From Teichococcus rhizosphaerae (GTDB lineage: Bacteria > Pseudomonadota > Alphaproteobacteria > Acetobacterales > Acetobacteraceae), in assembly GCF_002631185.1 (NCBI RefSeq), contig NZ_PDNU01000005.1, positions 1 to 64,000 of the forward strand: DNA of 64,000 nucleotides. The letters are read 5' to 3'. Both the position numbers and the translations under genes were made by a program. Below, in pieces: positions 23,432 to 35,064 of this stretch (within the stretch, counting starts at the first letter, position 1; each line of letters begins with the position of its first letter). A model generated the notes under the pieces. The model was given only the letters and a program-made list of their open reading frames with translations. It did not search any database and was not told the DNA's origin.

Positions 23432-23467
23432 GGGCCGGCCGGAGCGATCCGGCCGGCCCTTTTTTTT
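23432..23467 (+). terminator. strong rho-independent terminator
   Basis: A perfect 12-bp stem (gggccggccgga / tccggccggccc) with the loop gcga, followed by eight T on the plus strand. It lies between DUF1489 and the converging hyf-like operon (stop at 23501). A second, looser hairpin with a 38-base loop followed by five T lies at about 23319-23382. The T runs favour plus-strand termination. Otherwise 23214-23500 holds no gene. Confidence 0.9.
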
Positions 23468-23500: not shown

Positions 23501-24124
23501 TCACCCAGGGCCGTCTTCCGGCACGGGCCCGTCGCGCCGCGGCTCCGCCCAGCTTTCCATGGTGGGCTCCACCGGCCGGAGCGGCGGCGGCGGCGGCGCG
23601 GCCGTGACCTCGGCCTCCAGCAGCGCCAGCAGCCCCTCCAGGAGCAGGGTCGGGCTGGGCGGGCAGCCGGGGATCAGCAGGTCCACCGGCAGGAGCCGCC
23701 CGACGCCGCCCGGCTCCACCGCGTCGCTGCCCTGGAACACCCCGCCATCCACGGCGCAGTCCCCCACCGCCACCACCCATTTCGGGTCGGGCATCGCGGC
23801 ATGGGTGCGCAGCAGCGCCTCGTTCATGTTGCGGCCGCAGGGCCCGGTGACGAGCAGCACGTCGGCATGGCGGGGCGAGGCGACGAAGCGCAGCCCGAAG
23901 CGCTCCAGGTCGTGGACCACGCCGGACAGGGCGTTGATCTCCAGCTCGCAGCCATTGCAGGAGGCGGCGCCGACATGGCGGATGGCCAGGCTGCGGCCGA
24001 GGCGCCCGCGCGCCATGGCGTCCAGCCGCTCCACCAGCGCCGCGACGATCTCCGGATAGGTGGCGGGCGCCGGGTCGGTCAGCGGCCGGCGGAACAGGGT
24101 GCGCGCCAATCGGGGCAACAGCAT
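23501..24124 (-). CDS. HyfI/NuoB-like iron-sulfur subunit
   Basis: A 207-residue small subunit of the complex I/group 4 hydrogenase superfamily. It would carry the 4Fe-4S cluster next to the large subunit. Cysteines at C56 and C59 (SCNGCE), C123 (GDCA) and C154 (IPGCPPSP) match the expected cluster ligands; C96 (GPC) is extra. The C-terminal 35 residues are a Pro-rich tail. The ATG at 24124 was chosen because it begins a family-like N-terminus; the frame is open upstream into the large-subunit gene. It is the last gene of the six-gene operon, 26 bases after the large subunit. Confidence 0.85.
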   Translation of the reverse strand: MLLPRLARTLFRRPLTDPAPATYPEIVAALVERLDAMARGRLGRSLAIRHVGAASCNGCELEINALSGVVHDLERFGLRFVASPRHADVLLVTGPCGRNMNEALLRTHAAMPDPKWVVAVGDCAVDGGVFQGSDAVEPGGVGRLLPVDLLIPGCPPSPTLLLEGLLALLEAEVTAAPPPPPLRPVEPTMESWAEPRRDGPVPEDGPG

Positions 24125-24150
24125 CGGTCGGGCTCCGCGCCGGAACGGGT

Positions 24151-25656
24151 TCACAGGTCCACCCCGCTGCAGGAGGCGTTGAAGGATCGCTCGCAAAGCG
24201 GGAAGTCGGCCATGGCGCCGCCCTGCACCGCCGCCTCCAGCAGCGGCCAGTGCAGCCAGGAGGGGTCGCGCGGGAAGACGGCGCGGATCAGCCCCTGCTC
24301 GTCGAGCGCCATCCAGCACATCACCTCGCCGCGGAAGCCCTCCACCAGGCCGAGCCCCTCGCCTGGCCGCGCCGGCAGGGGCAGCAGCGTCTCCCCCGGC
24401 TCCAGCCGCGCCAGCAGGGCGGCCACCATGGCGAGGCTCTCGGCCATCTCGTCGAGCCTGACCTGCAGCCGCGCCGCCACATCCCCCGCCTGGCGCAGCG
24501 GCACGGTGAAGCCGAGCCGGTCATAGGGCGCGTAGGGCAGGTCGCGCCGCGCGTCGAAGTCACGCCCCGAGGCGCGGCCGACAAAGCCGCCGGCGGCGAA
24601 GCCCGCGGCCAGGGCGGGCGCGAGCGCGCCGCTGCCGGCCAGCCTGTCCTGCAACCCGGCATGGCCGTCGATCGCCCGCCGCAGCGGGGGCAGCTCGGCC
24701 ACCACCGCCGCCAGCGCGGCCAGGATGGCGTCCGGCCCGCTCGGCGCGATGTCGATGGACACGCCGCCGGGCACCACGCGGTCCATCATCAGCCGGTGGC
24801 CGAAGGCGCTGTCCGCCGCCCGCAGCACCACCTCGCGCAGCGCGCCGCAGCGGGCATGCGGCCAGGCGAAGCCGGCGGCGTCGCACAGGAAGCCGGCATC
24901 GTTGAGGTGGTTGGCGATGCGCTCCAGCTCCGCCATCACCCCCCGCAGCAGGATGGCGCGTGGCGGTGGCGCGACACCCGTGGCGGCCTCGGCGGCGGCG
25001 GCGAAGGCCCAGGCATGGGCGACGGTGGAATCGCCCGAGATGCGCGCCGCGAGCCGTGCCGCCAGCTTCGGCGACTTGCCGCGCATCAGCCCCAGGATGC
25101 CCTTGTGCGCGTAGCCCAGCCGCGCCTCCAGCCGGAGGATGGTCTCGCCCCGGACATGGAAGCGGAAATGCCCCGGCTCGGTCACCCCGCCATGAACGGG
25201 GCCGAGCGGGATCTGGTGCACCCCTTCGCCACCGGCGGGAAGAAAGGCCGGCTGCGGCAGCTCGCCGAGCGGGGGCTTGGGGTTGCGGCCGAGCGGCGCG
25301 TGGCGCGGCCAGAAGCCATGATCCAGCCAGGGCCGCGAATCGGCCGCGCCCTCGGCCCGCAGGCCCCAAAGGTCGGCCGCCATGCGCTCGAAGAGGCCGG
25401 CCGCCGGGCGGGCGGGGGAAAGCGCGGCATAGCGCCCGCCGGCGGCATCCGCCGTGGCCAGCAGCGGCGGGCCGCCGCCCGCGTGGCGGAAGGCGGCGTG
25501 CACCCGCTCCGCCTCCCCCCAGAGGCCCAGGAACTCGAGCTCCGGCTCCTGCCGCAGCGCGGCGGGCAGCGCCGTCCACCCCGCCTCGTCCATCCGCCAG
25601 CGGATCGGCGAGCGACGGGTGCCGGACTGGATCAGGCGGGTCGCGGGTCCGTTCAC
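24151..25656 (-). CDS. HyfG/NuoCD-like large subunit lacking nickel ligands
   Basis: A 501-residue protein with an N-terminal NuoC-like region (about residues 25-140) fused to a NuoD/hydrogenase large-subunit domain (about 145-501). GPVHGGVTEPGHFRF (about 152-166) and GYAHKG (181-186) are family landmarks. In nickel-iron hydrogenases the N-terminal motif R-x-C-G-x-C follows; here the aligned stretch is RISGDS (205-210), with Ser at both cysteine positions (S207, S210). The C-terminal end FNASCSGVDL aligns with the hydrogenase DPCxxC motif with Ser495 and Gly498 at the cysteine positions. So the nickel site should be absent, as in Ehr (energy-converting hydrogenase-related) complexes. It starts with GTG at 25656. 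Confidence 0.85.
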   Translation of the reverse strand: MNGPATRLIQSGTRRSPIRWRMDEAGWTALPAALRQEPELEFLGLWGEAERVHAAFRHAGGGPPLLATADAAGGRYAALSPARPAAGLFERMAADLWGLRAEGAADSRPWLDHGFWPRHAPLGRNPKPPLGELPQPAFLPAGGEGVHQIPLGPVHGGVTEPGHFRFHVRGETILRLEARLGYAHKGILGLMRGKSPKLAARLAARISGDSTVAHAWAFAAAAEAATGVAPPPRAILLRGVMAELERIANHLNDAGFLCDAAGFAWPHARCGALREVVLRAADSAFGHRLMMDRVVPGGVSIDIAPSGPDAILAALAAVVAELPPLRRAIDGHAGLQDRLAGSGALAPALAAGFAAGGFVGRASGRDFDARRDLPYAPYDRLGFTVPLRQAGDVAARLQVRLDEMAESLAMVAALLARLEPGETLLPLPARPGEGLGLVEGFRGEVMCWMALDEQGLIRAVFPRDPSWLHWPLLEAAVQGGAMADFPLCERSFNASCSGVDL

Positions 25657-25687
25657 GTCAGCTGTTCCCTCGCGCCAGCCGGGCAGG

Positions 25688-27136
25688 TCATCCGGCGATC
25701 CTCGCCGCCTCGGCCAGAAGCGCCGCGAGCGGCGCCGGCAGGGCCAGGCCCAGGATCAGCGCCAGCAGCAGGTGAAGCTGTGCCGGCGCCAGCGCCATCC
25801 ATTCCGCGCCCGGCAGCGGCGGCGGATCAGCCTCCCGCGGCGCCTCGGCACTGGCCGGGCCGCGGCAGAGATGCTGCGCGGCGCGCAGCATGGCCAGCGC
25901 CCCCGCCAGCAGGCCGAGGCCAAGCGGCAGGGCAAGCCAGGGCAGCCGCACCACGCTCTGCTGCGCCATCAGGAACAGCCTGGCGAACGGGGAAAAGGGC
26001 GGCAGCCCGGCCAGGGCCAGCAGGCAGAGCGCCAGCGTCCAGCCCGGCGCGGGATGGGACAGGGCCAGCCCGCCCAGGCCGGCCACGCGCGGGCCGCCCC
26101 CCAGCGCCATGGCGCGGCCCAGGGCCATGAAGCCGGCCCCCGCCACCAGGGCGTGGCCGAGCATGTGCAGCAGCCCCGCCATGGACGCCGCCCCGCCCAG
26201 GCCGAAGGCGAAGCTGGCCAGCCCCACATGCCCGATGCCGCTCCAGGCGAGGAGGCGCCGCGCATCCCGCTGCCGCCACAGCGCAAAGGCGGCCAGCAGC
26301 AGCGAGGCCAGCCCCAGCGCCACCATCAGCGCGCCGGGCGGCAGGGGGCCTGGGTTCAGCCCGACCACGGCCTTGGCCCGCAGGATGGCGTGCAGCGCCA
26401 CGTTCATCAGCAGGCCGGACAGCAGCACCGGAACCACCGCCGGCGCCTCGGCCTGGGCATCGGGCAGCCAGGCATGCAGCGGCACGAGGGCCGCCTGGGT
26501 GCCGTAGCCCACCAGCAGGAAGACAAAGGCCAGGGTCATCAGCCCCGGATCGGCCTCCCGCGCCACGCGGGCGAGGGTGGCGAGGGAAAGCGAGGCCACG
26601 CCCTCCCCCGCCGGCGGCTGCGCCGCCAGCGCCAGCACCACCGTGCCGAACAGCGCCAGCCCGAGCCCCAGCCCGCCCAGCATCAGGAACCGCCACGCCG
26701 CCCCGATGGCGGCGGGGGTGCGGCGCAGCGCCACCATCAGCACGCCGGCCAGCGTCGCCAGTCCGGCCGCCACCCACATCAGACCCAGATCGCCGGCCAG
26801 CAGCGCCAGGTGGCTGGCGCCGAGGAAGAGCTGGAAGCCAGCGTGGTAGGCCCGTCCGGCGCGCGGCCCGAAGCCTTCCGCCGGCAGCATGGCCGCCGAG
26901 AACACCGAGGCGGCAAGGCCCACCAGCCCGGACAGCAGCAGCAGCGGCAGGTTCAGCGCATCCAGGTGCAGCAGGCCCGCCGGCCCGCGCTCCAGCGCCG
27001 GCAGCGCCAGGGACAGCAGGAACCCCGCCGCCGAGAGGCCGATGTTGAGCAGGGCCGCCACGCGCTGGCGCGGGATGAGGGCCAGCACCGCCGCCCCCAG
27101 CAGCGGCAGCAGCACGAGCCAGGCGGGCTGGATCAT
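25688..27136 (-). CDS. HyfF-like antiporter-type membrane subunit
   Basis: A 482-residue membrane protein of the NuoL/M/N-Mrp family, with about 14 transmembrane helices predicted. The core reads LLVGYGTQAALVPLHAWLPDAQAEAP (about residues 207-232). HyfF-type proteins usually have GYGTK; here Q214 replaces the Lys. In the TM5 region WVAAGLATL, G125 stands where the family has a conserved Glu. Both changes are judged from memory of the family consensus. The ATG at 27136 overlaps the hyfE-like stop (ATGA), which fixes the start. Confidence 0.85.
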   Translation of the reverse strand: MIQPAWLVLLPLLGAAVLALIPRQRVAALLNIGLSAAGFLLSLALPALERGPAGLLHLDALNLPLLLLSGLVGLAASVFSAAMLPAEGFGPRAGRAYHAGFQLFLGASHLALLAGDLGLMWVAAGLATLAGVLMVALRRTPAAIGAAWRFLMLGGLGLGLALFGTVVLALAAQPPAGEGVASLSLATLARVAREADPGLMTLAFVFLLVGYGTQAALVPLHAWLPDAQAEAPAVVPVLLSGLLMNVALHAILRAKAVVGLNPGPLPPGALMVALGLASLLLAAFALWRQRDARRLLAWSGIGHVGLASFAFGLGGAASMAGLLHMLGHALVAGAGFMALGRAMALGGGPRVAGLGGLALSHPAPGWTLALCLLALAGLPPFSPFARLFLMAQQSVVRLPWLALPLGLGLLAGALAMLRAAQHLCRGPASAEAPREADPPPLPGAEWMALAPAQLHLLLALILGLALPAPLAALLAEAARIAG

Positions 27137-27810
27137 GCGCCCTCCCCTTCCCGCCCGGCGCCCCGCCGGGCCGGCAGGGGGGCATCCGGGCCGGGCAGGA
27201 CCCCATGCCGGCGAAACACCAGGAAGCCGCCCACCACCGCCAGCGCCAGCACCAGCGACGCGGCCGAAAGCCCCGGCACCAGCGGCGCGCCCCCCAGGCC
27301 GGAGGCCGCCAGCGCCAGCCCGTTCTCCAGGCTGAGCAGGCCCAGCACCTGGCTGATGGCGCCGTGCCGCGTGACTGTCATCAGCAGGCCGAGCAGCACC
27401 ACGGAAAGGGGGATGGCGAGGTCCCCGCGCGGCTGGGGCAGGGCGCCGGCGGCGGAAGGCGGCAGCGCCGCCAGCGCCAGCGCCACCAGCGCAACACCCG
27501 CCGCCATGCCGGCCCCGATGCCGATCGCGGGCTCCACCGCCGGGTGCAGGCCGAGCCGGCGCGCCAGCCGGCGCAGCGCCAGCGGCAGCAGCACCGCCTT
27601 GGCCGCCGCCAGCAGCGCGGCGAGGTAAAGGCCCGGCGCGCCCTGCGCCCAGCCCTGCCACATCAATGCCAGCGCCAGCAGCGCCGCCTGCGCGGCAAAG
27701 GCGCCGATCACGCCGGAGACGCGCCGCCGGTAGAGCATCACGAAGGAGAACAGCAGCATGCCGCCCCCCAGCAGCTGCGCCATGTCGTGGAAAAGCTGGC
27801 CGGTGCCCAT
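27133..27810 (-). CDS. HyfE-like membrane subunit
   Basis: A 225-residue protein with about seven hydrophobic helices, matching hydrogenase-4 component E, whose C-terminal part resembles NuoK. The region TVTRHGAISQVLGLLSLENGLALAA (about residues 137-161) carries the NuoK-like Glu in SLENG. It is an inner-membrane subunit expected to sit between the HyfC-like and antiporter-like subunits. The stop overlaps the next start by four bases, and it begins 13 bases after the HyfC-like stop. The C-terminal tail after residue 200 is charged and variable. Confidence 0.82.
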   Translation of the reverse strand: MGTGQLFHDMAQLLGGGMLLFSFVMLYRRRVSGVIGAFAAQAALLALALMWQGWAQGAPGLYLAALLAAAKAVLLPLALRRLARRLGLHPAVEPAIGIGAGMAAGVALVALALAALPPSAAGALPQPRGDLAIPLSVVLLGLLMTVTRHGAISQVLGLLSLENGLALAASGLGGAPLVPGLSAASLVLALAVVGGFLVFRRHGVLPGPDAPLPARRGAGREGEGA

Positions 27811-27823
27811 GCCGCGCCTCCCC

Positions 27824-28783
27824 TCAGGCCAAGCCGTTGGAAAGGAACAGGAGCACCACCCCGAGCAGCGCCAGCAGCAGCGCCGCGCCCAGGAACTCCG
27901 GCACGCGGAGGACGCGCATCCGGGCGGCGGCCGCCTCGAACGCCGCCAGCGCCAGCGCCAGCAGGCCGAGCTTCAGCCCCCAGGCGGCGAGGCCCAGCAG
28001 CCAGCCGAGCGGGCCCGCATCCGCCGGGGCGGTGCCGAAGGGGAGGAACACCGCCGCCAGCAGCGACAGCCACAGGGCGAGGCGCAGCGCGGCCTGCATC
28101 TCCCACAGCGCCAGGTGGCGGCCCGAGGCCTCCAGCAGCATCGCCTCCTGCACCATGGCCGGCTCCAGGGTGGTGCCGGGGCTGTCCACCGGCAGGCGCC
28201 CGTTTCCGGCCAGCGCCACGGCAAGCAGCGCCAGCAGCGCGAGGCCGAGCGGGAGGCGGAGCCCCGCCGGGCCTTCCCCCAGCGCCGCGCCGATGCCGTC
28301 GAGGTTGGTGGTGCCCGCCAGCATGGCCAGGACCATCACCGCCAGCAGGAAGGCCGGCTCGGCGAGGCTGGCGAAGCCCATCGCGCGCGCGGCGCCGAGG
28401 CCGCCCAGCGCGGTGCCGGCATCCATCCCCGCCAGGGCGAGCGCGCAGCGCGCCACCGCCAGCAGGCCGCCGACCAGGATGAGGTCGCCCATCGGCGCCA
28501 GGGCCATGCCGCGGGCGAAGCCCGGCACCATCAGCGCGGCGGCCAGCGTCGCCGCCAGCGCCACATAGGGGGCGGCCACGGAAACGGGGGATGCGCCCTC
28601 GGCCAGCACCGGCTGCTTGCGCAGCAGCTTCCGCAGGTCCCGCCAGGGCTGCAGCGGGTGGGCGCCGCGCCGGCCGAGCAGCCGCGCCTTCAGCCAGCGC
28701 ACCAGCCCCACCAGCAGCGGCGCCAGCGCCACCAGCAGCGCGGCGTGCAGGAGCTGGGTGAGGATCGCGGGAAACAGCGTCAC
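27824..28783 (-). CDS. HyfC/NuoH-like membrane subunit
   Basis: A 319-residue membrane protein of the NuoH/HycD family with about eight helices, which docks the peripheral arm. PWRDLRKLLRKQPV (about residues 46-59) and NGRLPVDSPGTTLEPAMVQEAMLLEASG (about 194-221) are family landmarks; the two Glu in the second are kept, while the usual His of VHE is Gln. It starts with GTG at 28783, which overlaps the preceding stop (GTGA), the pattern of a tightly coupled operon. Confidence 0.84.
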   Translation of the reverse strand: MTLFPAILTQLLHAALLVALAPLLVGLVRWLKARLLGRRGAHPLQPWRDLRKLLRKQPVLAEGASPVSVAAPYVALAATLAAALMVPGFARGMALAPMGDLILVGGLLAVARCALALAGMDAGTALGGLGAARAMGFASLAEPAFLLAVMVLAMLAGTTNLDGIGAALGEGPAGLRLPLGLALLALLAVALAGNGRLPVDSPGTTLEPAMVQEAMLLEASGRHLALWEMQAALRLALWLSLLAAVFLPFGTAPADAGPLGWLLGLAAWGLKLGLLALALAAFEAAAARMRVLRVPEFLGAALLLALLGVVLLFLSNGLA

Positions 28784-30846
28784 GGCGCCGGCCCGCCCGG
28801 CATTCCCTCGGGCAGCAGCGCCAGCAGCAGGAGCAGCAGCGCCAGCGTGCCGAAGCCCAGCACCAGGCCTTGCCGCGGGCCAGGGCCCCCGAGCCGTTCC
28901 GCCGCCGCCGCCAGCCGCTCCCATAAGGTGGCGAGGAAGCCCGGCACCCGCCCCCGCGGCGGGCCGCGGAAGCCGTCCTCCGGCCGGGCGGGGCCGGTGT
29001 CGTGCGGGGGTGGCGGCGGGTGCCCGCCCCGGGTTCCGCCCAGCATGTCCGCCAGCATCCGGCGCAGCGGCCGGGCGAAGCCGTCGGCGCTGGGCTGGGT
29101 GGCCGGGTCGCCGAAGGGCAGGTGCGGCGGCGGCGCCTGGAAGCCGCCATCCCAGGCCGGGCCGCGCCGGGACGGCAGCGGCGAGAGGCGGTGGCGCAGC
29201 GCCACCAGCCCCGCCCCCAGCAGGCCGAGCAGCACCGCCAGCGGCAGCGGCGCATAGTCCGAGCCCCGCAGGGAGGGGCTGACCGAAAGCGGCGCCGCCT
29301 CGGCCAGGCCAGGATGGCCGCTGAGCGCGGCGATGGCCCCCGAGCCCAGCATCAGCAGCGGGCCCGGCAGCAGGCCGAGCAGCACCGCAAGCCCGGCCAG
29401 GCCCATGAGCGCGGCGCGCACCACCGGCGGCGCCTCCTGCGCGCCCAGGGTGCGCGGCCCGCGCGGGCGGCCGAGAAAGGCGAGGCCCCAGAAGCGCAGC
29501 ATGGCGGCTGCGCCCAGCGCCAGCGAAAGCGCGGCAAGGGCCGTGCAGGCGGCAACCAGGAGCTGGAAGCCCAGCTCGCCCACCCGCCAGGCGCCGAGCA
29601 GCGCCTGCAACAGCAGCCACCCCCCCGCGAAGCCGGACAGCGGCGGCAGGGCGGCGGCGGCGGCGGCGCCGAGCAGGGCGCAGAGCGCCACCACCGGCAT
29701 GGCGTGCACCAATGCCCCCAGCCGGTCCAGGTGGCGGGAGCCGGCGGCGTGCCGCACCTCGCCGGCCACCAGGAGGAGGAGCGTCGTGAACAGCCCGTGC
29801 GCCAGGGCGTGCAGCAGCGCGGCGGCGGCGGCCAGTGCGGCCAGCGGGCCGAGATCGGCGGCGCGCAGCGTGGCGGCGAGGCCGAGCGCCAGGGTGACCA
29901 GCCCGGCATGGCCGATGGCGGAGCAGGCCAGCAGCACGCCCGTGTCGCGCTCCTGCCCGGCGCGCAGCGCGCCCAGCACGGCCGAGGCGGCGCCCGCCAC
30001 CATCAGCGGGGCGCCCCACCAGAGCGGCTGGCCAAGCCCGCCGAGATCGAGCAGCAGGCGCGCCATGACATAGAGCGCGACCGGGGCCGCGACGCCCGGA
30101 AGCAGGGCGAAGGCCGGCCCCGCCGCGGCGGGCTGGACCAGCGGCAGCCAGCCATGCAGCGGCACGAGCCCCGCCATGGCCCCCGCGCCCGGCAGCACCA
30201 GCGCCAGCACCGCCACCGCCACCCAGCCCTGCGGCGGCGCGTTCCGCAGACCGGCGAAGGAAAGGTCGCCCGCCGGCCCGCCCATCAGCCCCGCCGCCGG
30301 CACCAGGCAGGCGGCGGCGAACAGCGCGAAGCCGAGATAGTGCCGCGCCGCGGCGCCCGCCTCCGCCCCTTCTCCCGCCTCGGGGGGTGCGGCGGCCAGC
30401 AGCGCCCAGGCGGCCACCGACATCAGCCCGAAGCCCAGCAGCAGGGTAAAGGCATCGGCGGCCAGCAGGGTGAGCGCCATGGCCGCCAGCAGCAGCGGGC
30501 AGGGCAGCAGCCGGCGCGGCGGCGCGGCCCCCTCGCGCTCCCAGGCGAACAGGCCGGCGGCCAGCCCGGCCAGCCCGAGCAACAGCAGGAACCAGGCGGA
30601 CAGCGCATCCAGCCCCAGGCTCAGCGGCGCCCAGGGCGGGCCGAGCGGCAGCAGCGCCGCCGCCACCCCGCCTTGCGCGAGCGCCAGCACCGCCAGCAGC
30701 GCCAGCCCGGCCGAGACGGCGGCGCAGCCGCCATGCACCAGCCGCGCCATGGGCAGGCCGGCGGGCGCGGGCCACCGGCCCGCCAGGGCCCCGGCGGCGG
30801 CCAGCAGCAACAGGAGGCAGGGCGGCAGGACGAGCGCCGCGGTCAC
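28780..30846 (-). CDS. HyfB/HycC-like antiporter-type membrane subunit
   Basis: A 688-residue membrane protein of the NuoL-like family, close to the length of E. coli HyfB. The TM7-8 region is GLVPLHGWLPLVQPAAAGPAFALLPGVAAPVALYV (about residues 226-260). The conserved TM5 Glu of the WELMS motif appears as Gly140 (FGLMS), and the TM7 Lys as Pro255, by eye. If right, this subunit lacks classical proton-channel residues. It starts with GTG at 30846 without a strong Shine-Dalgarno and is the first gene of the operon; a promoter should lie in 30847-30980. Confidence 0.83.
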   Translation of the reverse strand: MTAALVLPPCLLLLLAAAGALAGRWPAPAGLPMARLVHGGCAAVSAGLALLAVLALAQGGVAAALLPLGPPWAPLSLGLDALSAWFLLLLGLAGLAAGLFAWEREGAAPPRRLLPCPLLLAAMALTLLAADAFTLLLGFGLMSVAAWALLAAAPPEAGEGAEAGAAARHYLGFALFAAACLVPAAGLMGGPAGDLSFAGLRNAPPQGWVAVAVLALVLPGAGAMAGLVPLHGWLPLVQPAAAGPAFALLPGVAAPVALYVMARLLLDLGGLGQPLWWGAPLMVAGAASAVLGALRAGQERDTGVLLACSAIGHAGLVTLALGLAATLRAADLGPLAALAAAAALLHALAHGLFTTLLLLVAGEVRHAAGSRHLDRLGALVHAMPVVALCALLGAAAAAALPPLSGFAGGWLLLQALLGAWRVGELGFQLLVAACTALAALSLALGAAAMLRFWGLAFLGRPRGPRTLGAQEAPPVVRAALMGLAGLAVLLGLLPGPLLMLGSGAIAALSGHPGLAEAAPLSVSPSLRGSDYAPLPLAVLLGLLGAGLVALRHRLSPLPSRRGPAWDGGFQAPPPHLPFGDPATQPSADGFARPLRRMLADMLGGTRGGHPPPPPHDTGPARPEDGFRGPPRGRVPGFLATLWERLAAAAERLGGPGPRQGLVLGFGTLALLLLLLALLPEGMPGGPAP

Positions 30847-30980: not shown

Positions 30981-31811
30981 TCAGAGCATCTCCAGCGGCT
31001 GCTTGCGGCGGGGCGGGGGAAAGGCGCCGTCCAGCTCGGCCAGGTCCTCCGGCGTCAGCACCGTTTTCCAGACATCGGCGTTCTCGCGCAGATGCGCCTC
31101 GGTGGCGGCCTTGGGGATGCTGATGAGGCCGGGCGCGCGCAGCGTCCAGGCCAGCGCCACCTGCGCGGGCGTGATGCCCTGGCGCTTCGCCACCCGCCGC
31201 AGCGCGGGGTGGTCCAGCAGCGCGCCGCCCTGCCCCACGGGCGAATAGGCCATCACCGGCATCTTCAGCCGCGCCGCATAGGGCAGCAGGTCGAACTCCG
31301 CGCCGCGCGCCTCGAGGTTGTAGAGCACCTGGTCGGTGGCGCATTCGGACAGGGCGGTGCCCAGCTCCTCCAGGTCCGGCACGTCGAGGTTGGAAACGCC
31401 CCAGGCGCGGATCTTGCCCTGCTCCACCAGCCGGCGCATCGCCTCCACCGTCTCGGCCAGCGGCACGGCGCCGCGCCAGTGCAGCAGGTAGAGATCGATC
31501 GTCTCCACCCGCAGGCGCCTCAGGCTGCGCTCGCAGGCCTGCGGCAGCCGGGCGCGGGAGGCGTTCTGCGGATAGGCCTTGGTGACCAGGAACACCTCGT
31601 CCCGCCGGCCGGCGATGGCCTCGGCCACCACCTCCTCCGCGCCACCCTCGGCATACATCTCGGCCGTGTCGATCAGCGTCAGGCCGAGGTCGAGGCCGAG
31701 GCGCAGCACCCGCGCCTCGGCGGCGCGGTCGGCGCCCCGCTCGCCCAGCCGCCAGGTGCCCTGGCCGAGCACCGGAACGCCGCGGCCATCCGGCAGGGTG
31801 ATGGTGTTCAT
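30981..31811 (-). CDS. aldo/keto reductase
   Basis: A 276-residue NADPH-dependent oxidoreductase with a TIM barrel. The catalytic tetrad is D48, Y53 (LIDTAEMYAEG), K78 (VTKAYPQN) and H111 (LYLLHW). It resembles the E. coli YeaE/DkgA-like group, which reduces methylglyoxal and similar aldehydes; the true substrate is unknown. The ATG at 31811 has gaggag upstream. It is divergent from the IalB-like gene, with only 23 bases between start codons, and a palindrome lies at the junction. Confidence 0.92.
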   Translation of the reverse strand: MNTITLPDGRGVPVLGQGTWRLGERGADRAAEARVLRLGLDLGLTLIDTAEMYAEGGAEEVVAEAIAGRRDEVFLVTKAYPQNASRARLPQACERSLRRLRVETIDLYLLHWRGAVPLAETVEAMRRLVEQGKIRAWGVSNLDVPDLEELGTALSECATDQVLYNLEARGAEFDLLPYAARLKMPVMAYSPVGQGGALLDHPALRRVAKRQGITPAQVALAWTLRAPGLISIPKAATEAHLRENADVWKTVLTPEDLAELDGAFPPPRRKQPLEML

Positions 31812-33603: not shown

Positions 33604-33620
33604 ATGGATTGTTCATCCAT
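33604..33620. promoter_or_regulatory. inverted repeat upstream of the MocR-type gene
   Basis: ATGGAT and ATCCAT, separated by five bases, lie 70 bases before the MocR-type start, in the AT-richer 33540-33660 patch between divergent genes. MocR proteins commonly bind near their own promoters, so this is a candidate operator. Confidence 0.4.
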
Positions 33621-33690
33621 ACGTGTTGCCTTATCCTTCCGCCTTCCCTTCCTGCCGGCCCGCCGGCCAAGTGCCCGGAGCGCCCGCCGC

Positions 33691-35064
33691 ATGTCCTCCT
33701 GGAAGCCGGACCTCCCCGCGGATGGCAGCCCGCGCTACCAGGCGATCGCGCGGGCGATGCGGGACGATCTGCGCGCCGGCCGCCTTTCGCCCGGCCAGCG
33801 CCTGCCGCCGCAGCGCGCCCTGGCCGCGGCCCTCGACCTCGACCTCACCACCGTGACCCGCGCCTTCAACCTGGCCCGCGAGATGGGGCTGACAGAAGCG
33901 CGGGCCGGGCGCGGCAGCTTCATCCGCGCCGCGGCGGCGGAGGCGGTGGGGCCGCCCGTGCCCCCGGTCATCGACCTCAGCATGAACATGCCGCCGCAAC
34001 CCGAGGCGGCCCGGCTGCGCGCCCGCATCCAGGAAGGGCTGGCCGGGCTGCTGGCCGAGTCCGGCGGGCTGATGGCGCTGCACTACCAGGACAGCCTCGG
34101 CGCCGCGCCGGACCGCGCCGCCGCCGCGCGCTGGCTGGCACCCCGGCTGGGCACGGTGCCGCCAGCGCGGCTGGTGGTGGCTGCGGGGGCGCAGGCGGCG
34201 CTTTCCGCCATCCTGCGCGTGCTGCTGCCGGCCGGCACGGCGCTGGGCGTGCCCGCCCTCACCTATCCGGGGCTGCGCGCGGCAGCGGCGCGGCAGGGGG
34301 TGCGGCTGGTGCCGCTGGCCATGGACGCGGACGGGCTGGTCCCCGCCGCGCTGGAGGAGGCCTGCGGGCGCGAGGCCCTGCGCGCCCTTTATTGCGTGCC
34401 GACGCTGGACAACCCGACCACCGCCACCCTCCCTCCCGCGCGGCGGGAAGCCATCGTCGCCCTGGCGCGCCGCTTCGGCCTTTCGCTGATCGAGGACGAT
34501 GCCTATGGCGCGCTGGCCCGCGCCGCGCCACCGCCCCTGGCGGCGCTGGCGCCGGACATCGCCTGGCACGTCGCCACCCTGTCGAAATGCCTGACGCCCG
34601 CGCTCCGCACCGCCTATGTGGCGGCGCCCGGCCCGGCCGCGGCGCAGCGCCTCGGCGCCGAGCTGCGCGCCGCCACGCTGATGGCGCCACCCCTGATGGC
34701 GGCGCTGGCCACGCGCTGGGTGCAGGAAGGGGTGGCCGGCGAGATCACGGCCGCCATCCGCGCCGAGAGCGTGGCGCGGCAGGCGCTGGCGGCGCGGGTG
34801 CTGCGCGGCTGGGCGATGCGCGCACAGCCGGAGGGGCACCACCTCTGGCTGCACCTGCCGGAAGGCTGGCGGCAGGCGGAGCTGGTGGCGGAAGCCCGGC
34901 AATCCGGGCTCGCGCTGGTGCCGAGCAGCGCCTTTGGCGAGGGCTCGCGCGGGCTGCGCATCGCGCTTGGCGCGGCGCCGGGCCGGGAGGCGCTGGAGCG
35001 CGGGTTGCTGGCGCTGGCGGCGCTGCTGGGGCGGGGGCCGGGGGGAATGGGGACCTTCGTCTGA
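33691..35064 (+). CDS. MocR-type (GntR/aminotransferase) transcriptional regulator
   Basis: A 457-residue two-domain regulator. An N-terminal GntR winged helix (about residues 10-80, with RLSPGQRLPPQRALAAALDL...TVTRAF) is joined to a fold-type I aminotransferase-like domain (about 100-450) that binds pyridoxal phosphate at K299 (TLSKCLTPALR), with D270 and Y272 near the cofactor. Such regulators sense PLP, GABA, taurine or other amines. The ATG at 33691 gives a normal N-terminus; an upstream in-frame ATG at 33604 lies in the inverted repeat and is unlikely. It is divergent from DUF983 and convergent with an aminotransferase gene, which may be its target. Confidence 0.9.
   Translation: MSSWKPDLPADGSPRYQAIARAMRDDLRAGRLSPGQRLPPQRALAAALDLDLTTVTRAFNLAREMGLTEARAGRGSFIRAAAAEAVGPPVPPVIDLSMNMPPQPEAARLRARIQEGLAGLLAESGGLMALHYQDSLGAAPDRAAAARWLAPRLGTVPPARLVVAAGAQAALSAILRVLLPAGTALGVPALTYPGLRAAAARQGVRLVPLAMDADGLVPAALEEACGREALRALYCVPTLDNPTTATLPPARREAIVALARRFGLSLIEDDAYGALARAAPPPLAALAPDIAWHVATLSKCLTPALRTAYVAAPGPAAAQRLGAELRAATLMAPPLMAALATRWVQEGVAGEITAAIRAESVARQALAARVLRGWAMRAQPEGHHLWLHLPEGWRQAELVAEARQSGLALVPSSAFGEGSRGLRIALGAAPGREALERGLLALAALLGRGPGGMGTFV

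Follow-up and report, generated by a model that had tools for sequence, protein, structure and literature searches.

The stretch of DNA analysed here (the window, 64,000 nucleotides at the start of contig NZ_PDNU01000005.1 of Teichococcus rhizosphaerae, order Acetobacterales, class Alphaproteobacteria) carries six head-to-tail genes, hyfB-C-E-F-G-I, on its minus strand at positions 23501-30846, all with open reading frames and all related to group 4 [NiFe] hydrogenases and respiratory complex I. In the encoded complex the nickel ligands of the large subunit are absent, the cluster cysteines of the small subunit and most charges of HyfC are present, and the proton-channel residues are absent from both antiporter-like subunits, HyfB and HyfF. 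Averaged over the branch leading to the window, the genes evolved under purifying selection, and channel residues were lost on this lineage and on others. Three of the five gene junctions are start-stop overlaps, with gaps of 13 and 31 bases at the other two:

hyfB, 28780-30846, minus strand: antiporter-like subunit, 688 amino acids, Proton_antipo_M; the hydrogenase-4 B model matches best, below its cut-off.
hyfC, 27824-28783, minus strand: NuoH/ND1-like subunit, 319 amino acids, NADHdh; its GTG start overlaps the hyfB stop.
hyfE, 27133-27810, minus strand: small membrane subunit, 225 amino acids; weak match to the hydrogenase-4 membrane subunit, below cut-off.
hyfF, 25688-27136, minus strand: antiporter-like subunit, 482 amino acids, Proton_antipo_M; the hydrogenase-4 F model matches best, below its cut-off, and the ATG overlaps the hyfE stop.
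hyfG, 24151-25656, minus strand: large subunit, NuoD/HycE-like, 501 amino acids, Complex1_49kDa, with NiFeSe_Hases just below cut-off.
hyfI, 23501-24154, minus strand: small subunit, NuoB/HycG/MbhJ-like, 217 amino acids, Oxidored_q6; GTGA overlap with hyfG.

Families were assigned with Pfam and NCBIfam models and, for HyfG and HyfI, by comparison with solved structures. The structure closest to HyfG was HycE of the Escherichia coli formate hydrogenlyase (FHL; 7z0s, E = 1.9e-43), and those closest to HyfI were MbhJ and HycG. These matches agree with the six-gene, group 4-type operon previously read from the letters of the window alone (the original prediction), and also uphold its assignment to the energy-converting hydrogenase-related (Ehr) complexes: the large subunit is akin to those of group 4 NiFe hydrogenases and to NuoD and lacks nickel-binding CxxC motifs, the small subunit has the cysteines of the proximal [4Fe-4S] cluster, and NuoH-like and antiporter-like membrane subunits lie in the same operon. 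The expectation that went with this assignment, of a membrane part like that of an ordinary energy-converting complex, did not hold. Residues tied to ion translocation are lost from the antiporter-like subunits at 12 of 13 sites, a loss in both subunits that the original prediction had missed.

Aligned to E. coli HyfG, the window protein has RISGDS (residues 205-210, as predicted) for RVCGIC and SFNASCSG for SLDPCYSC. The four nickel-ligand cysteines are replaced by S, S, S and G, and no intact CxxC pair lies at the nickel positions. The protein stops three residues past the C-terminal motif and lacks the extension that E. coli HyfG has at this end. HyfI retains its cluster cysteines C66, C69, C133 and C164, counted from the GTG start (C56, C59, C123 and C154 from the start originally chosen, ten residues later). 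Searches of the window genome (4.65 Mb, 113 contigs, completeness estimate 100%) gave no match to HypD, consistent with the predicted lack of maturation genes, HypD being the one Hyp protein searched for. They also gave no other NiFe-hydrogenase large subunit, the sole second family match being the NuoD locus, below cut-off. Likewise, tblastn with E. coli HyfA, HyfH, NuoI, NuoF and NuoG (1e-6) found no counterpart among the genes of the 64-kb window (formate dehydrogenase was not among the queries), as foreseen for the ferredoxin-type HyfA and HyfH. What would mark a group 4 hydrogenase, namely the RxCGxC and DPCxxC ligands, HypD and (in the window) HyfA/HyfH, is therefore missing. The idea that the complex works as a hydrogenase by way of an atypical metal centre has only overall homology to group 4 hydrogenases to recommend it; with cysteine at 0/4 ligand positions, a HyfG without the C-terminal extension, and neither HypD nor another NiFe hydrogenase in the genome, we give it practically no credence.

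Similar operons were found well beyond this species. A 10-row HyfG profile at 1e-60 matched 27 of the 289 genomes sampled from the class and 67 of the 299 sampled from the phylum (both counts include the window's genome and two of its family). These searches yielded 28 and 66 places besides the window, partly overlapping, and 40 regions were read. The order B-C-E-F-G-I was present in 36 of the 40, with L144, L149, L160 and L166 differing or incomplete, and the same five tblastn queries labelled no gene in any of them. Ehr-type operons of this sort are widespread in Pseudomonadota. Because SGD stands at the place of the nickel motif in 36 of the 40 loci (exceptions: SAD in L145 and L162, NAV in L166 and CGD in L164), the RISGDS-type replacement is a conserved motif and not noise. 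The C-terminal motif SFNxSYSGxDL, or a close variant, was found in most of the 40 loci outside the window's family, and all four HyfI cluster cysteines in 37 of the 38 class and phylum loci that have HyfI. In one locus, L164 (G543:C44), the HyfG motif is RSCGDS, with a cysteine at the first nickel-ligand position and the site otherwise vacated. HypD occurred in 27 of 250 genomes of the order (26 above cut-off). By hand count, 113 of the 250 had a HyfG-like match at <=1e-80, a threshold picked post hoc and with matches not each checked for the motif. Only 19 of these 113 have HypD, and the predicted Ehr family is therefore independent of nickel maturation.

We compared HyfB and HyfF with E. coli Hyf, with 19 intact loci of the window's family and with the nearest relative, locus L038. 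This sister, picked for its proximity and not for its residues, is apparently Pseudoroseomonas aestuarii JR1/69-1-13 (Teichococcus aestuarii, order Acetobacterales; loci L038 and L123). Channel sites were taken from a screen of charged columns conserved among intact relatives, and read EKHKKEKE (HyfB) and EKHKE (HyfF) in E. coli Hyf, L038 and all 19 intact family loci. The window has GMQPGGTG and GQHAL. With the intact residue first, the replacements are E140G, K224M, H238Q, K255P, K303G, E312G, K354T and E409G in HyfB, and E125G, K214Q, K332A and E387L in HyfF, where H221 is retained; 12 of 13 sites over the two subunits are thus lost relative to E. coli Hyf and the sister species. At the positions of NuoM E144, K234, K265 and E407, which we take to be the standard proton-translocation positions of complex I, window HyfB has lost 4/4 (G, M, P, G) and HyfF 3/3 (G, Q, L), the fourth position being Asn in E. 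coli HyfF too; this alignment was made after the missing charges had been spotted by eye in the translations. The sister species retains charges at these positions where the window has lost them. In an alignment with HycC, the sites lost from HyfB fall on E135, L208, H222, K239, Q285, E294, K336 and E391, all of which the paper on the FHL structure considers as points on the proton path (PMC9474812). HycC itself is uncharged at two of these eight positions, including Leu208 for the lysine of transmembrane helix 7 (PMC9474812).

Lysines number 0 in window HyfB vs 4 in the sister, and 1 vs 5 in HyfF. Further charge losses were E180G in HyfE, several in HyfB that lie in loops or in its C-terminal part, and E193G, H205T, H212Q and K288R in HyfC. 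HyfC retains eight acidic or basic positions as EDREDEEE, and HyfE K71/E162, HyfB H346/H350 and HyfF H221/H328 are also retained in the membrane arm. The complex I subunits NuoL, NuoM and NuoN encoded in the same genome have the residues found at the equivalent sites in E. coli, and the method therefore detects them when they are present. No second, intact copy of the operon was found in the window genome. An AlphaFold model of window HyfB built from a 5-row alignment was unusable (mean pLDDT, the predicted local distance difference test, 39.9). Sequencing error or misassembly was considered and judged unlikely: the 12 substitutions lie in two open genes, six of them need 2-3 base changes, and purifying selection is seen elsewhere.

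The losses in the two antiporter-like subunits were concentrated on charges. Invariant sites were lost at 9/17 charged vs 9/65 other positions in HyfB (p=0.0015) and at 6/17 vs 4/55 in HyfF (p=0.009), with no significant charged excess in HyfC (4/20 vs 3/40), HyfE (1/5 vs 2/21), HyfG (2/39 vs 7/63) or HyfI (0/6 vs 1/39); HyfG and HyfI retain 37/39 and 6/6 invariant charges, respectively. L110 and L109 were removed from the intact group before this count, and the intact rows were grouped after the NuoM positions had been seen, so that invariance there, and the 0/17 charged losses of L038, are partly by construction. HyfE of the sister has itself lost 2/7 invariant charged sites. A neutral-drift estimate predicts 8 losses at the 13 sites, with P(>=12)=0.014-0.017, and is weak in that the sites were listed after the losses had been seen.

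Among relatives, loss was close to an all-or-none matter. Among 76 loci aligned at all 13 sites, the full set of 13 is present in 55, 12 residues remain in two, 4 in one and 0-2 in 18, with no locus between 4 and 12. Within the window's family, 37 of 51 rows were fully scored: 19 keep all 13 and 18, including the window, keep 0-2, although 18/37 is no prevalence, the family loci having been picked to span the HyfG match scores, with those of the genus added. Outside the family, where loci were chosen by HyfG matches alone, 39 of 40 rows were fully scored; the full set is present in 36, 12 residues remain in two and 4 in L158. The other 14 family rows have missing or partial genes; those partly scored keep 5/5 (L040, L077), 4/5 (L065), 2/5 (L046, L075) or 1/5 (L071), and L054, L066, L069, L116 and L117 each keep 0/8. 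A gap at a site was counted as lost, which matters for the shortened HyfB or HyfF of L055-L063. A scan of named genomes with window HyfB, using that single query sequence and its own stretches as patterns, returned 4 loci. The absence of intermediates suggests that buried charges vanish quickly, perhaps selectively, once pumping is given up. The sole loss locus outside the window's family, L158 (G580:C166, another family of the same phylum), reads ELLKNSNQ and EMHTQ, and retains RISGDS and the HyfI cysteines. Three genomes (G019, G090 and G122) have two Ehr operons each, with intact L052, L047 and L049 beside the lost or partly lost L053, L046 and L048.

In the broad tree and in those of HyfB and HyfF, the window and the intact L038 form a pair (0.998-1.0). 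Channel loss arose independently at least three times, and probably more: the losses in the window, in at least one other lineage of the family and in L158 are secure, and L068 is a probable fourth. L068 joins the intact L072 in the HyfG+C+I (90) and HyfB (1.0) trees, as well as by shared neighbours. It joins other loss lineages in the broad FastTree and the HyfF tree, a grouping that is perhaps long-branch attraction. Up to six losses were counted on the family HyfG+C+I tree.

An ordinary proton-pumping Ehr, in which the replaced residues are dispensable and protons pass by another route, for example by way of HyfB H346/H350, HyfF H221/H328 and water, would fit the retained HyfC acids, HyfE K71/E162 and several histidines. 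In FHL, moreover, H2 production was not significantly lower after HycC E135, H222, K239 or K336 was changed to alanine (PMC9474812). However, 12 of 13 sites were lost jointly in both subunits when 57 of 76 loci keep 12-13, window HyfB is without any lysine, and changes of the middle lysine and terminal glutamate block conduction in Nqo13 (PMC11496545). We consider it quite improbable that the complex still pumps in this way.

Selection was estimated with our own codon model at near-saturated synonymous sites (t up to about 1), so the values of omega (the ratio of nonsynonymous to synonymous rates) are rough. On the window branch, omega was 0.24 for hyfB, 0.30 for hyfF, 0.15 for hyfG, 0.16 for hyfC and 0.19 for hyfI, with omega=1 rejected in each case (2dlnL, twice the log-likelihood difference, of 33.7, 29.5, 49.9, 38.9 and 7.6, respectively); hyfB omega was not clearly above that of other branches (2dlnL 2.3). 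The window branch spans time on both sides of the loss, and for this reason we also fitted two older loss clades, in which no member has the residues. Omega was 0.17 and 0.18 for hyfB and 0.21 and 0.16 for hyfF, over total neutral lengths of about 5-8.5, and 0.20 and 0.18 for hyfG. Intact control clades were at the same level, 0.18-0.19 (hyfB 0.18, from one control clade only; hyfF 0.18 and 0.19).

The reading towards which we lean, with confidence only a little above an even balance, is that of a nickel-free Ehr complex whose ancestor had complete proton channels, whose two pump subunits were both stripped on this species' own lineage, and which has kept an uncoupled redox function at its HyfG/HyfI end. 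Equivalents of the complex I residues studied by mutation are all missing from window HyfB, and HyfF is without every one that a HyfF normally has, so that the two would no longer translocate protons; in liposome experiments on Nqo13, either K235M or E377Q stops proton conduction (PMC11496545). The window retains the HyfG pocket, the HyfI cluster and most charges of HyfC, so that the redox end would be the selected part, and the complex may still assemble and act there. The vacated HyfG pocket, next to the [4Fe-4S] cluster, would take up a substrate or an acceptor, and an electron donor would dock on HyfI. The redox reaction would then run uncoupled from pumping, with HyfB and HyfF serving as a membrane platform from which buried charges were removed after pumping had stopped. 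The window looks like an early stage of this process, in which the pump charges are gone and the redox end is still present.

A number of observations weigh against the uncoupled redox complex, the first of them concerning constraint. The hyf genes are constrained, yet less than most of their neighbours: in four of five neighbouring control genes, window omega was 0.04-0.07 (one of the four, sdh148, does not reject omega=1, with 2dlnL 3.1). The fifth, the aldo/keto reductase, gave 0.29 on three taxa, again without rejecting omega=1, and three further planned controls were omitted as missing from the L038 region. Window-branch omega averages time before and after the loss; hyfF lies above other branches (2dlnL 5.4), and hyfE has omega 0.62 vs 0.13 elsewhere (2dlnL 21.5), with omega=1 not rejected. 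The HyfG+C+I branch is threefold longer in the window than in the sister (0.146 vs 0.048). Much of this would also be seen in an operon in the first stage of decay, its function lost recently and its genes not yet broken, for which the non-charged invariant losses (9/65 in HyfB and 7/63 in HyfG vs 1/66 and 0/63 in L038) speak as well. Against decay, the six genes remain open across 7.3 kb and reject omega=1 in 5/6 cases, the HyfB and HyfF losses concentrate on charges, and the two clades without the residues hold hyfB and hyfF at omega 0.16-0.21 over those long neutral lengths. We therefore regard decay as improbable.

The remaining difficulties for an uncoupled redox complex concern its redox end, its partners and its mutant analogues. 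A conserved tyrosine, Y496, is missing from window HyfG. Of the 17 loss rows that have HyfG, just two (the window and L110) keep SGD; the other 15 have lost it, and several of these keep GD, whereas L055, L059, L060, L062 and L063 have lost the motif altogether. The HyfC acids are also lost in most older loss lineages, and no conserved neighbour that could supply a donor or name the reaction was found in 80 regions. Catalysis by Paracoccus complex I depends on each of E141, K232 and E405, 18% remains in a K263Q variant, and none of the variants described was uncoupled (PMC9802314), so a reaction that still turns over is not assured. The lost sites are also unequally telling, because E. coli K263A-type mutants still pump (PMC9802314) and the ion-pair change E123Q in isolated Nqo13 raises conduction (PMC11496545).

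Because the HyfG pocket drifts in most older loss lineages, the main rival is a complex that no longer turns over and acts as a redox sensor, assembly platform or membrane-protein partner through the HyfI Fe-S cluster. All four HyfI cysteines are kept in 14 of 17 fully scored family loss rows with HyfI, and so outlast the HyfG motif; complex I loses its catalysis on mutation of any of three equivalent sites (PMC9802314); and in 18 of 80 regions, by our own reading, the gene immediately upstream of hyfB encodes a small XRE-type regulator. In the window itself, however, HyfG retains its motif and nearly all of its charges, which is beyond the needs of a pure scaffold, and no partner is conserved nearby. 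On this evidence we judge a sensor or platform unlikely, while taking it more seriously than the other alternatives.

Other features near the operon are as follows:

Terminator-like hairpin, 23432-23459, no strand: 12-pair stem, 4-base loop and T8 on the plus strand; a consensus match only.
Aldo/keto reductase gene, 30981-31811, minus strand: directly upstream of the operon and named by Pfam; a neighbour, not shown to be part of the complex.
MocR-like regulator gene, 33604-35064, plus strand: best score EhuR (ectoine utilisation), 383.6 against a 480-bit cut-off.

The hairpin sits between the end of the operon and a convergent gene of the other strand, and exact matches to it were confined to loci of the window's own genome. 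Recurrent neighbours were the aldo/keto reductase (9/40 regions, the window included), TRAP transporter genes (7/40), psd/pssA-like genes (10/80) and small XRE-type proteins (19/80); the reductase was named by Pfam and the others by eye from translations. None resembles an electron donor, and a donor among the neighbours was rejected for this reason. The aldo/keto reductase is also upstream of hyfB in the distant relatives L055, L059 and L063, an adjacency that may be mere synteny. The XRE-type protein upstream of hyfB is 70-98 amino acids long (L044, L047, L049, L050, L070 and 13 of L127-L155), and no other gene adjoins this family as often. Loci L055, L057 and L059-L063 adjoin psd/pssA-like genes and have a shortened HyfF (371-414 vs about 480 amino acids); their HyfG motif has drifted to RAAAGA, RVAAGC or similar, and the four HyfI cysteines persist. 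Omega was 0.10-0.18 in three of them (L055, L059 and L063).

The complex I superfamily poses the question whether redox chemistry and pumping are separable, and in the Paracoccus mutants described both fall together (PMC9802314). We tentatively propose, at rather less than even confidence, that evolution has repeatedly made an uncoupled Ehr of this superfamily, in which the redox end and the full membrane arm are selected and the proton chain of both antiporter-like subunits is lost. If true, this would be an uncoupled member of a kind not shown by those mutants (PMC9802314). P. aestuarii with the residues and the window species without them, in the same operon, form a natural pair; together with the older loss lineages of low omega, they make this separability testable. 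The parts that persist once the pump is gone, the HyfI cluster foremost among them, would be those for which the complex is maintained, and would provide a handle on the Ehr reaction.

The operon shares with respiratory complex I the homologous core subunits B, D, H and L/M/N. It differs in that no NuoF, NuoG or NuoI was labelled beside it by tblastn of the 64-kb window, that the NuoD His and Tyr, presumably quinone-site residues of complex I, are not kept (GPVHGGVTEPGH, RISGDS), and that the tandem CC of NuoB is CxxC. The MBS of Pyrococcus furiosus (6u8y), whose chemistry is that of sulfane, is a distant likeness, matched by the window large subunit at 3e-13. E. coli Hyf and FHL are closer: the order B-C-E-F-G-I is that of hyf, and the highest similarities are to HycE (7z0s) and the HyfB and HyfF models. 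In contrast to E. coli Hyf, however, the window is without HyfA and HyfH (64-kb tblastn), its six-gene order has no place for HyfD or HyfJ, and nickel cysteines, the HyfG C-terminal extension and the channel charges are absent. The Ehr complexes are already known as a kind (PMC6349859, PMC10284858), and the window resembles them in its group 4-like large and small subunits, the lack of nickel ligands, and its NuoH-like and antiporter-like subunits. They are suspected of translocating charge through the antiporter-like subunits (PMC6349859), both of which lack the translocation residues in the window. Among the matches listed, and in titles and the starts of abstracts of the open-licence PMC literature, there was no report of antiporter-like subunits that had lost these residues. 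The closest comparison is with P. aestuarii, which has the same operon and neighbours, with HyfG 87% and HyfB 82% identical, but keeps 13/13 channel residues.

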